From: Hyphomonadaceae bacterium
GTDB taxonomy: Bacteria > Pseudomonadota > Alphaproteobacteria > Caulobacterales > Maricaulaceae
DNA: 64,000 bases
Assembly: GCA_013001295.1 (NCBI GenBank)
Contig: JABDMW010000028.1
Location: 124,001 to 188,000, forward strand
Direction: 5' to 3'
Part shown: piece by piece, positions 7,022 to 11,573 of the stretch
Layout of the letters: every line of letters begins with the position of its first letter
Numbering within the stretch: position 1 is the first letter of the stretch
Position numbers and translations under genes: made by a program
The notes under the pieces: model-generated
What the model saw: only the letters and a program-made list of their open reading frames with translations
Told to the model about the DNA's origin: nothing
The model's database searches: none

Positions 7022-8908
7022 TCATTCTGCCGCTTCAACCTTTTCCTCGTCCAAATATATCTCGCCGCCCATTTCCTTAAATTTATCGGACATTTCGTCC
7101 ATCCCTTTTTGCGACAGGGCTTCGAGGTCGGCTTTTTCGTTGTCGGACAGGCCGTCCGCATAATCGCGCACGTCCTGTGTGATTTTCATGGAGCAGAATT
7201 TCGGGCCGCACATGGAGCAGAAATGCGCCACTTTGTGGGCGTCTTTTGGCAGGGTCTGGTCATGGAAATCGCGGGCGGTTTCCGGGTCGAGGGACAGGTT
7301 AAACTGATCTTCCCATCTAAACTCAAACCGGGCACGTGACAGCGCATCGTCGCGGATTTGCGCCGCCGGATGACCTTTGGCAAGATCGGCGGCGTGGGCC
7401 GCGAGCTTATAGGTGATCACACCAACTTTGACATCGTCGCGATCCGGTAGGCCCAGATGCTCTTTCGGGGTCACATAACACAGCATGCTGGTGCCGAACC
7501 AGCCGATCATGGCCGCGCCAATGCCGGACGTGATATGGTCATAACCGGGCGCGATGTCTGTGGTCAGGGGCCCAAGCGTATAGAACGGAGCTTCGCCGCA
7601 TTCGCGCAGCTGTTTTTCCATATTGATTTTGATCTTGTGCATGGGCACATGGCCGGGGCCTTCGATCATCACCTGACAGCCTTTTTTCCAGGCGATCTGG
7701 GTTAGCTCCCCGAGCGTCTCCAATTCTGCAAATTGCGCGCGGTCATTGGCATCGGCCACAGAGCCCGGACGCAAGCCATCGCCGAGCGAGAAGCTGACAT
7801 CATAGCGGCGCATGATGTCGCAAATGTCCTCGAAATGGGTGTAGAGGAAGCTTTCCTTATGGTGGCTGAGGCACCATTTCGCCATGATCGAGCCGCCGCG
7901 CGAGACAATGCCGGTGACCCGGTGCGCGGTCAGATGGATATAGGCGAGACGCACGCCCGCATGGATGGTGAAATAGTCAACGCCCTGCTCGCATTGTTCG
8001 ATCAATGTGTCGCGGTAGACTTCCCAAGTCAGGTCTTCGGCGACGCCGTTGACTTTCTCCAGCGCCTGATAGATCGGCACCGTCCCAATCGGCACGGGTG
8101 AATTGCGGATGATCCATTCGCGGGTGTTGTGGATGTTGCGGCCGGTGGACAGATCCATAACATTGTCCGCGCCCCAGCGTGTGGCCCAAACCATTTTATC
8201 CACTTCTTCCTCGACCGAGCTGGCCACGGCCGAGTTGCCGATATTGGCATTGATCTTGACCAGGAAATTCCTGCCGATGATTTGCGGCTCGATCTCCGGG
8301 TGGTTGATGTTGGACGGGATAATGGCCCGGCCTTTGGCGATCTCGTCGCGGACAAATTCCGGCGTCACAAAAGCGGGCAGTTCCGCGCCAAAACTCTCGC
8401 CCGCATCCACACGGGCTTGGGCACCGGCGACCATTTCCTGACGACCGAGATTTTCGCGCTCGGCCACATAGATCATCTCTTTGGTGATGATGCCCGCTTT
8501 GGCGAATTCATATTGGGTGACCATTTCGCCGTCGAGCCCGCGCAAGGGCTTGTTGCGGATCGGGAATTCCCGCGCCAAATGCCGCCCGGTCGCCCCGCCA
8601 TTGTCTTCCGGTTTGACGTGACGGCCTTCATATTCCTCAACGCCACCACGCTCGAGGATCCACGCCGTCCGCGGACGGGCCAGGCCCTTCTCTACGTCGA
8701 TCTCAACATCTGGATCCGAATATGGTCCAGAAGTGTCATAAACCGGCACGTCCGGCTCATTGGCGCTCGGGTGTAGCGCAATGGCGCGGTGCGGCACGCG
8801 CAAATCCGGCGCAGCCTTAGGGTTGGTGTACACCTTGGTCGACGCAGGCAGCGCCCCCGTCGTCACTTCCGGTGTCTGAAACGTGCTTTGGTCAATGGGT
8901 TTATTCAT
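7022..8908 (-). CDS. thiC: Phosphomethylpyrimidine synthase
   Basis: 628 residues, full length. ThiC converts aminoimidazole ribotide to HMP phosphate, the pyrimidine half of thiamine, by radical SAM chemistry. The cluster motif [11 protein letters not shown] (C-x2-C-x4-C) is near the C-terminus, and the [18 protein letters not shown] and GDGLRPGS regions are characteristic. It is the fifth and last gene of an overlapping leftward operon. Its ATG overlaps the preceding PH-like gene by 8 bases, and no riboswitch lies directly upstream. The TPP riboswitch is instead 2.6 kb away at the operon head, which is unusual for thiC. Cytoplasmic. Confidence 0.98.
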
Positions 8909-9494
8909 GAGGTGTCTCCAGAGTTTCCATGAAATAGTATTGGATAAATTTTTCAGCTTCTTCAGCGGCTGCGAGGCCGCGAATCTTTAAATGGTGACCA
9001 TGCTTATCAGAATTAGCATATCCACTGGCTTTTAAAGTCATAAATTGTTTGTCGCGGACAACCATTAATTCTTGAAATGGCCTACCGGTAAATATTCGCC
9101 GAATACCCAAATTAGGTTCGACCAAAAGCAATCTCTGATCGGTAATGAACATGTGCATGTTCGCGACGACCATATTGCCGATCATAGAGATAAACGTCGA
9201 CAGGCATATGTACGAAAACATCACGAAACCTAGCAACCAGGCAATAGTAGAAAAAGCAAAAGCTCCGTTTTTGCTGAAAGCTTGAATTGCGTAGAAAAGG
9301 CATACGCACGCAAAAAGTCCAATGAGCAATATTGAAAAAATAAAAATTATCAGCTTCATGCCTTTTTGGATCTTCACATATTCCGGGCTTTGCTTGCCAG
9401 CCCATAAGAGTTTTTCATCCTCTAAGGCAATATCCTCGAAGATTTCTACGGGGATCATTGCCCTTTGAATTATGTCTAGAACCTGCTTGTCCAT
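8901..9494 (-). CDS. Membrane PH-like domain protein (third paralogue of the thiC operon)
   Basis: 197 residues. The layout is an N-terminal segment [11 protein letters not shown], two transmembrane helices (about residues 48-70 and 83-107), then a soluble C-terminal domain starting [13 protein letters not shown] and containing the GRPF motif and a C-terminal helix AAEEAEKFI. This resembles bacterial PH (bPH/YdbS-type) membrane proteins. It shares ITxQRL and F-T/S-GRPF with the protein encoded at 10947-11498, so the two are likely paralogues. Its ATG overlaps the stop of the preceding gene (TAATG) and its own stop overlaps the thiC start. It therefore lies within the TPP-riboswitch operon. 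Function unknown. Confidence 0.7.
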
Positions 9495-10108
9495 TATCCC
9501 GCACCCCCTGACAAAAACTGTTCGTGGATGAGGCGTTCGACGGCCTTGGGTTTTTTGATTTTCTGGAAACTGTCGAGCTGTACCTGATACATGGCGGTGC
9601 GGAGATCGCGCCGGTTTTGGCGCGACGCGATTTCGAGCGTGCCGATATCGTCATTACCAGTGCGTTCGATGCGCTCAAATCCGTGGCTTGTGATCGATAT
9701 AATCCGGCGCGGAAACAGATTGCTGGCAATAATGCCGCGCTGATCGGTCAATGCATAAACTTGAAACAAGGGTGAGATCAGCAAGCGTACCGAGCTCAGC
9801 AGTAGCATCAAGCCAATGAGTAAAAAGAAAAACGGCACATAAAAGGCCAATGCGATAATCGGCTTGGCCAGTTCCGTGACCAGGCCAGGTGGGATGATCT
9901 CGGTTTCGGCCACCTGGATCGACGTGAACACGCCCAGAATGATCAACAAAACCACCGACAACCAGATAAAGGAAAACAACATCAAAAAAATCGATGACAT
10001 GGAGATCGGCAAGCGGTTAGGACGATCAGCCCAAAGTAATACCTCGCCCTTGCGGAGTTCCGGCGTTACCTGCTTTCGCACCTTTTCATCGATCGTGATG
10101 TCTTTCAC
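9494..10108 (-). CDS. Membrane PH-like domain protein (second paralogue of the thiC operon)
   Basis: 204 residues. It begins with a helix and LRKGEVLLWADRPN, the short signature that opens many bacterial PH-domain membrane proteins. Two long hydrophobic helices follow (about 38-64 and 84-112). The soluble part starts YALTDQRGIIAS and has RRIISITSHGFERIER and GTLEIASR, closely following the bPH consensus (TDxR, then a strand leading to xIxxI, then GxIxI). It is more divergent from the other two copies and lacks GRPF. The 3' end overlaps the next gene by one base and the 5' end overlaps the MBL gene by four bases. Probable inner-membrane protein of unknown function. Confidence 0.7.
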   Translation of the reverse strand: MKDITIDEKVRKQVTPELRKGEVLLWADRPNRLPISMSSIFLMLFSFIWLSVVLLIILGVFTSIQVAETEIIPPGLVTELAKPIIALAFYVPFFFLLIGLMLLLSSVRLLISPLFQVYALTDQRGIIASNLFPRRIISITSHGFERIERTGNDDIGTLEIASRQNRRDLRTAMYQVQLDSFQKIKKPKAVERLIHEQFLSGGAG

Positions 10109-10950: not shown

Positions 10951-11498
10951 GCTCTACCGCCTGACTTTTGCATAAAAGATTTCAACAATAGTTTCTCAGC
11001 TTCCGCTCCTCCGGTGACCCCGAGGAGTTGAACGACAACCTCATCAGTATCCAGCGTGATTCCGTGCAAATTGATGTCACTGAGCTCGCCTTTCTTGCTG
11101 ATTTCCAAAGATGAAAACGGACGACCCGAAAAGGATTTATGTCGCGAGCCGGATACATTGGCCACGACCAGTCTTTGGTTGGTGATGGCGTAATTCATTT
11201 CTGTATCACGGTTGATCTCATTGATAATCTGCTTTCCCAGAATATAGAGCGCCGTCATCGTTCCCACCAGACCCGCCGCAAGATAGAAAATTTGCCCGTC
11301 GATTTGCGACGATCCCAGTGTTTCAACCGAGAGTGAAATCAATATGCCTGTGAGCACCACGAAGAATACTGTCCAGAAGATCAAAAAGCCCCAGGCAATC
11401 TTGTCGGCTTTTTTGAGCCCGCCGGTACTTTCCCACAGGACTTTTTCCTTTGGTTGCAAAGCCAGTTCTGGTTCTGTTTGTGTTTCAACTTCCGCCAT
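10947..11498 (-). CDS. Membrane PH-like domain protein, first gene after the TPP riboswitch
   Basis: 183 residues. It opens with LQPKEKVLWESTGG, has two transmembrane helices (about 33-58 and 70-90), and then a soluble domain starting NYAITNQRLVVANVSG with FSGRPF and a C-terminal helix GGAEAEKLLLKSF. It is clearly related to the protein encoded at 8901-9494. Its Shine-Dalgarno AAGGA (11506-11510) is the 3' conserved part of the TPP riboswitch, 7 bases before the ATG, so its translation should be directly switched by TPP. Unlike usual riboswitch-controlled genes it has no known thiamine role. Function unknown. Confidence 0.7.
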   Translation of the reverse strand: MAEVETQTEPELALQPKEKVLWESTGGLKKADKIAWGFLIFWTVFFVVLTGILISLSVETLGSSQIDGQIFYLAAGLVGTMTALYILGKQIINEINRDTEMNYAITNQRLVVANVSGSRHKSFSGRPFSSLEISKKGELSDINLHGITLDTDEVVVQLLGVTGGAEAEKLLLKSFMQKSGGRA

Positions 11499-11501
11499 GT
11501 G

Positions 11502-11573
11502 TCCGTCCTTACGCTGGTCCTAACCAGATCAAGTTATAAGGGTGCGTCTCAACCAATCAAGGTGCCCCTCGGA
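11502..11573 (-). promoter_or_regulatory. TPP riboswitch (THI element)
   Basis: Read on the minus strand, the conserved blocks appear in order: GGGGCACC (5' side), GGTTGAGA (matching the CUGAGA block), CACCCTTATAACTTGATCTGG (split in the family as ACC-UGAUCUGG) and CCAGCGTAAGGA (matching CCAGCGUAGGGA). The ends TCCG (11570-11573) and CGGA (11502-11505) close the P1 helix. The sequence ends three bases before the ATG of the first PH-like gene, and AAGGA doubles as its ribosome site, so TPP binding should block translation initiation. This is strong by motif; folding and TPP binding are not tested here. Confidence 0.9.

Follow-up and report, generated by a model that had tools for sequence, protein, structure and literature searches.

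Why should a thiamine pyrophosphate (TPP) riboswitch stand four genes upstream of thiC, its usual target, and what are the genes that lie in between? This arrangement is found on the minus strand of a 64,000-nucleotide stretch of a Hyphomonadaceae genome (Alphaproteobacteria, Caulobacterales; contig JABDMW010000028.1, positions 124,001 to 188,000), which we call the window and whose coordinates are counted from its first letter. We consider it probable that the locus displays a drifting regulon boundary, in which the riboswitch sits four genes ahead of its usual target, translational control has been passed on to thiC, and an envelope module has been captured. The elements on which this answer draws, in the order of transcription, are as follows.

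11581..11609, minus strand: promoter-like site TTGTGA-17-CATAAT, with TG ahead of the second hexamer, ending one base before the aptamer match
11489..11579, minus strand: aptamer of the TPP riboswitch (RF00059), its internal stem shortened (Rfam, 61.0 bits)
11506..11510, minus strand: AAGGA, Shine-Dalgarno-like, within the aptamer's 3' part and 7 nt ahead of the ATG of PH1
10947..11498, minus strand: PH1, a PH-like membrane protein of 183 aa with two helices (alignment with PH3 and relatives; no Pfam family above cut-off)
10105..10950, minus strand: MBL, 281 aa, metallo-beta-lactamase fold, signal-like N-terminus, HxHxDH motif (Pfam, AlphaFold, fold search)
9494..10108, minus strand: PH2, a PH-like membrane protein of 204 aa with two helices and a GTG start (open reading frame, alignment)
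8901..9494, minus strand: PH3, a PH-like membrane protein of 197 aa with two helices, whose gene ends within the first thiC codons (open reading frame, alignment, model, Foldseek)
8901..8908, minus strand: ATGAATAA, the 8-base overlap of the PH3 stop and the thiC start (read from the sequence; 4- or 8-base overlaps recur in relatives)
7022..8908, minus strand: thiC, phosphomethylpyrimidine synthase (Pfam, NCBIfam)

The RF00059 covariance model is covered over its full length (positions 1-105), and its 61.0 bits compare with a gathering score of 54.3. This match is the only one in the whole genome, and a lax scan of 6900-14200 (E up to 5) for a second or remnant TPP riboswitch, including one between PH3 and thiC, returned none. 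An earlier note, made from the letters of the window alone, had placed the riboswitch at 11502-11573 on the minus strand, which is the core of the Rfam match and passed the covariance check. thiC is identified by the equivalog model NF006763 (1037 bits, cut-off 650). Along PH1-MBL-PH2-PH3-thiC the genes overlap by 4, 4, 1 and 8 bases, as that note had read them (1-4 bases each, and 8 into thiC). The four genes and thiC are closely packed into a single unit headed by one TPP riboswitch, and the junction of riboswitch and first gene recurs in relatives; the gene order that the note gave for its own check, PH-PH-MBL-thiC, has to be corrected to PH1-MBL-PH2-PH3-thiC. Judged from the sequence, TPP likely controls PH1, MBL, PH2 and PH3 along with thiC.

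The promoter-like site ahead of the aptamer is one of only 2 in the 6800-11800 region, compared with a mean of 4.6 in shuffles; it is weak when taken alone, though its position fits. The second, also weak, lies at 10793-10765 within the MBL gene and speaks for a rival account in which most thiC transcription starts at a promoter of its own within the operon and the riboswitch governs the first genes only. Promoter-like sites being rarer here than in shuffles, and the genes overlapping throughout, we regard this as very improbable; it would moreover leave thiC uncontrolled, since the genome has no second TPP riboswitch match.

How the riboswitch could act on PH1 is suggested by the junction itself. 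AAGGA in the 3' strand of the aptamer stands at a working distance (7 nt) from the PH1 start codon, and the same geometry is found in relatives. Of 40 loci whose first called gene is one other than thiC, 31 have the start of that gene 4-14 nt downstream of an AGGRA-like motif at the 3' end of the aptamer; of 30 in which thiC comes first, 5 show such close spacing, and a separate platform is usually interposed (Fisher p 6e-7, relatedness ignored). These counts cover 70 of the 80 mapped riboswitch loci, namely those where a labelled gene begins no more than 400 nt away; in some loci (e.g., G004) the motif taken lies a few bases beyond the usual one, and several in-frame upstream codons were counted as thiC starts. 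The spacing suggests that the aptamer supplies its own ribosome site, because the first non-thiC genes begin just past the AGGRA-like motif. In the proposed mechanism, the 3' part of the aptamer would supply the Shine-Dalgarno site of whichever gene comes next; with TPP bound, the aptamer would sequester this site, leaving the first gene (PH1 in the window) untranslated. The overlaps of 4, 4, 1 and 8 bases would then couple translation through MBL, PH2 and PH3 to thiC, and the four proteins would be made only at low TPP. The thiC start, ATGAATAA, permits upstream genes to overlap it by 4 or 8 bases, both of which are seen repeatedly in relatives.

The distance between riboswitch and thiC was compared across 99 genomes, the window's own included (14 of the own genus, 45 more of its family, f1, and 40 more of the order), which were searched for the TPP riboswitch, thiC and MBL. 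A riboswitch and thiC on the same strand of one contig were obtained in 80 of them, with a gap of less than 150 bp in 37, of 150-350 bp in 3 and of at least 350 bp in 40. The wide gaps are present in all 11 measurable genomes of the own genus, in 19 of 37 in the rest of f1, and in 3 of 10, 1 of 10, 0 of 2 and 6 of 10 in the groups f2, f3, f4 and f5, respectively. In a sample of 190 genomes of the class, 43 from outside the order have a linked pair among the matches listed, none with a gap of at least 350 bp; of the other 20 thiC genomes outside the order, 17 are without a linked riboswitch among the matches listed, and 3 with thiC fragments were left out. As a control, glycine-riboswitch loci returned from the same 99 genomes were examined (30 loci, from genomes of which 10 have a wide TPP-thiC gap). 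In 29 of the 30, one and the same aminomethyltransferase-like gene, by our own reading gcvT, follows close behind the aptamer, and the thirtieth (G039) showed no such frame in the stretch examined. The filled leader is therefore a feature specific to the thiC locus, since the glycine-riboswitch loci keep the same target directly behind. On a quick thiC tree of 67 rows, a fewest-changes count gives at least 16 changes between filled and empty leaders and at least 28 changes of first-gene identity. The tree holds 67 of the 79 loci with thiC and a riboswitch, the others having thiC pieces shorter than 330 aa. In one locus (L196, genome G036), thiC is in several pieces with internal TGA codons, either a broken gene or an assembly fault.

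What fills the gap was read from 42 loci, the 40 with a wide gap together with G010 (contig end) and G043 (gap of 185), of which 39 yielded 67 proteins 90 aa or longer. Each gene was called as the longest open frame, which leaves its start approximate. YjbR recurs at 14 loci, MBL at 11 (the window included) and NAGPA at 2. PH-like gap proteins number 14, three of them in the window, with five BLAST groups joined by our own reading of motifs and alignments. There are further a histidine phosphatase (3), a DUF1801-like family (3) and a thioesterase-like family (3, by our own sequence reading), plus singletons. For the scanned representatives, YjbR, His_Phos_1, NAGPA, DUF2065, SseB and DUF3800 are above the Pfam cut-off, and DUF1801 is below it (19.9 vs. 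27.2 bits). Three of the recurrent families are hydrolases of phosphoester chemistry with secretion-type N-termini.

Whole-genome searches placed these families near the thiC locus well beyond the gap itself. Within 10 kb of a TPP riboswitch or thiC lie 17 of 29 MBL matches (31 places, less two weak second matches), 25 of the 41 strong YjbR matches and none of the 14 weak ones (two second pieces set aside), and 20 of 33 PH-like matches; the PH-like profile was built from gap proteins, which makes its strong matches partly circular. PH-like matches outside the profile are likewise found there, two strong ones (G043) and 4 of 17 weak ones. Copies of MBL, YjbR and PH-like genes near TPP riboswitch or thiC are on thiC's strand, except for two PH-like ones, and none is downstream of thiC. 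The cargo families, as we call those that occupy the gap, thus favour the thiC locus whether they are inside or outside the gap.

Gene maps of 83 loci reveal a common order, CrtI-like, NAGPA, YjbR, MBL, PH-like and thiC, of which each locus holds some members only. Two of its members lie upstream of the riboswitch in the window.

11796..12638, minus strand: NAGPA (phosphodiester glycosidase), just upstream of the riboswitch (PF09992, 80 bits)
12544..14154, minus strand: FAD oxidoreductase (Pfam Amino_oxidase), which we take to be CrtI-like, at the upstream end of the array in this genus (Pfam, gene maps)

For CrtI, NAGPA, YjbR, MBL, PH and the histidine phosphatase, 52 of 56 locus-pairs agree with this order; three are reversed (G043 twice, G004) and one is mixed (the window). 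Family D2065, mostly noise made of short hydrophobic frames, was left out of the counts. The place of the riboswitch within the array is variable. The thiC-nearest riboswitch lies after and before YjbR in 9 and 16 cases, MBL in 5 and 11, PH-like genes in 2 and 12, the histidine phosphatase in 1 and 3, NAGPA in 13 and 2, and CrtI in 10 and 0. Even within the own genus it is found before NAGPA (G003, G009), between NAGPA and PH1 (the window), before YjbR (G002, G006, G007, G012) or between YjbR and MBL (G001, G013). Hence the window's NAGPA gene, being upstream of the riboswitch, should be outside TPP control, and in G003 and G009 the gene comes after it. The search of relatives for the same gene order, proposed in the earlier note, thus finds the families and their order again, with the riboswitch set at a changing place among them. 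As the riboswitch stands at different points of an array of nearly constant order, different genes come to lie between it and thiC, and the regulon boundary drifts accordingly. Stops in the YjbR matches of G001, G010, G017 and G045 had raised the possibility of decay, which was rejected; they are the genes' own terminal stops.

Such variation could arise if the riboswitch is itself the moving unit, i.e., if an aptamer with its own Shine-Dalgarno site is copied along the array and fused at successive start codons while old copies decay. We hold this version tentatively, its likelihood falling a little short of even. Family f5 offers a possible instance, where 6 of 10 genomes (L217, L219, L223, L229, L231 and L233) have two TPP matches on the same strand, 1-4.5 kb apart, before thiC. 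The upstream match is below the gathering score in all six (36.6-51.9 bits, compared with 63.7-70.1 for the one nearer thiC), and no clear target gene was found directly behind it. These weak upstream matches would fit fossil copies and are consistent with a moving riboswitch, in which case the edge of the TPP regulon would drift from species to species.

Several points weigh against a drifting boundary as we have described it. The comparative data fit a moving riboswitch and genes crossing a riboswitch alike. The 99-genome set is weighted towards the own genus and family, order agreement was counted across related genomes with the own genus dominating the CrtI pairs, and the DUF1801 and thioesterase-like pair, which was left out of the order count, splits 2 to 3. 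Two of the 40 wide gaps (G088, G098) have no open frame of at least 50 aa, and 9 of the 40 filled loci lack the close spacing, although three of the nine (G003, G009, G031) are miscalls, their true starts being nearer the aptamer by eye. In the window, the ligand-free fold predicts AAG of AAGGA as paired and GA as unpaired, so that only 3 of the 5 bases would be paired; taken in isolation, the leader shows no better folding than shuffled sequences (z -0.44, with 63 of 200 shuffles equally good), and its folding energy was dropped as evidence. The promoter-like site inside the MBL gene belongs here too, though such sites are fewer than in shuffles.

The captured genes themselves offer some hints as to what has been brought behind the riboswitch. 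The MBL protein is above the cut-offs of both PF13483 and PF12706, and its AlphaFold model (pLDDT 90.2) has human NAPE-PLD (4qn9) as the closest solved structure (fold E 3.2e-10, profile E 4.5e-6). In 23 aligned sequences H84, H86, D88, H89, H159, H186, D189 and H241 are invariant, and the metal ligands are presumably among them. With the MBL fold, the HxHxDH motif and further His and Asp residues, it is NAPE-PLD-like, sharing fold and motif with NAPE-PLD and other Lactamase_B_3/B_2 metallohydrolases. In contrast to NAPE-PLD, it has a secretion-type N-terminus, is only 14-16% identical to NAPE-PLD chains, and is fused to NAGPA in two relatives, a Hellea metagenome-assembled genome (MAG) and G043. 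The fusions (L130:5959-7476 and L005:1501-2979) are single proteins of about 500 aa with a signal-like N-terminus. In the Hellea MAG, the fusion is followed by an acyltransferase-like gene (by our own sequence reading), PH-like genes and a histidine phosphatase; neither thiC nor a TPP riboswitch was found within the 12.8-kb stretch examined. The histidine phosphatases, that of the Hellea locus included, have a lipoprotein-type N-terminus as read from their sequences. Because MBL resembles NAPE-PLD, is fused to NAGPA and keeps this company in Hellea, the likeliest reading is that NAPE-PLD-like MBL, NAGPA, the lipoprotein-type histidine phosphatase and the PH-like membrane proteins would make up an envelope module cleaving phosphoesters or phosphodiesters. 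MBL relatives at five gammaproteobacterial loci have mixed neighbourhoods without thiC, too mixed for MBL surroundings outside the order to serve as a clue to function, and these were dropped. A defence system was also considered and set aside; for ten proteins, PADLOC gave no more than two matches, both marginal (E 0.0057 and 0.0076).

The PH-like proteins are harder to name. The earlier note had called three genes PH-like, a name that is moderately backed. PH1, PH2 and PH3 have no Pfam family above cut-off, the bPH families included, for which reason we call them PH-like and not members. One homologue at the Hellea locus barely passes bPH_3 (PF14470; 23.7 vs. 23.0 bits). A predicted model of PH3, of low confidence (pLDDT 56.3, pTM 0.33), runs strand, two long helices, six strands and helix, and the number and order of its strands would fit a seven-strand sandwich with a C-terminal helix. 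Foldseek gave no match to this model at E <= 0.001; the top-ranked, non-significant matches are mostly PH/PTB folds as judged from their entry names. The likeness to bacterial PH domains lies in that one relative and in these weak fold matches, whereas the two long helices after the first strand set the PH3 model apart. Being too uncertain, the model was set aside as supporting evidence.

Does the module serve thiamine? The earlier note had proposed thiamine uptake, salvage or sensing, which is not supported as stated, with the same families upstream of the riboswitch in many relatives and a Hellea cluster lacking thiC and TPP riboswitch. As a version of this idea, secreted MBL, NAGPA and histidine phosphatase might remove phosphate or other moieties from thiamine compounds beyond the inner membrane, with the PH-like proteins helping at the membrane and TPP shutting the set off together with thiC. 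The cargo does lie behind a TPP riboswitch in many relatives, the closest solved structure of MBL is a phosphodiesterase, MBL and NAGPA are fused in two genomes, and a histidine phosphatase with a lipoprotein-type N-terminus (by our own reading) is in the gap of three. But many copies of the cargo families stand upstream of the riboswitch, the Hellea cluster shows no thiC or TPP match in its 12.8 kb, and the five gammaproteobacterial MBL loci are without thiC in their mixed surroundings. TPP-controlled thiamine salvage operons carry genes of other kinds, such as those for TonB receptors, TenA and permeases. Eight thiC-less f4 relatives (L146-L153) resemble these: five of the eight have a TonB-receptor-like and a TenA-like gene behind the TPP riboswitch (own reading), L150 and L151 had only one of the two called, and L152 has a permease-like gene; by eye, no cargo family was seen in these eight loci. 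The window shares with them a TPP riboswitch ahead of envelope genes, but its four cargo proteins match no thiamine transporter or salvage family in Pfam and NCBIfam (E up to 0.1), and membership of a known family of that kind was rejected. To our knowledge, YjbR, DUF1801 and PH-like proteins have no link to thiamine, which counts against scavenging as well. On balance, we consider a scavenging role rather unlikely.

The variety of the cargo, which includes families found in a single genome, and its frequent gains and losses on the thiC tree raise the alternative of neutral hitch-hiking. Small genes would repeatedly land or stay between the riboswitch and thiC, ATGAATAA, at the start of thiC, would close two frames so that coupling keeps thiC translated, and TPP control of the cargo would be functionless. 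Palindromic repeats on both sides of the operon also point that way. However, the same few unrelated families recur across several of the order's families, and each searched family has more than half of its strong matches clustered here on one strand, which chance landing fails to explain; hitch-hiking is a serious candidate, though we lean against it. As to the repeats themselves, an inverted repeat of about 110 bp lies at 11655-11766, between NAGPA and the riboswitch. Its arms are like CCCTCACCCTAACCCTCTCC, which has 5 occurrences in the genome at up to 2 mismatches and is a possible substrate for local rearrangement. At 6757-6936, just downstream of thiC, a 26-base palindrome-rich repeat occurs in inverted orientation and looks element-like.

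We return to the drifting boundary. A captured module may aid thiamine scavenging or merely ride on the thiC promoter. In aptamer family and final target, the window agrees with the TPP riboswitch-thiC arrangement (RF00059) treated in a published survey (PMC3766115). Compared with that arrangement, the window has four unrelated genes between aptamer and thiC, and the 3' part of its aptamer apparently serves as the ribosome site of the first gene; with five genes behind the riboswitch, it goes beyond the arrangement covered there. A literature search of open-licence papers, by titles and the beginnings of abstracts, returned none that describes these genes as lying between the riboswitch and thiC.

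It is usual to annotate a riboswitch by the gene that directly follows it. Because aptamer and target are apart in half of the linked loci, catalogues of regulons that are based on adjacency will miss both the captured genes and the mode of thiC control. An aptamer with a built-in ribosome site could bring any gene under TPP control through one precise fusion, and such a one-step fusion would be a simple route for regulon growth. For the little-known envelope module, in which a NAPE-PLD-like MBL joined to NAGPA is accompanied by PH-like proteins and a phosphatase, the riboswitch also suggests low TPP as a condition under which its function may be sought.

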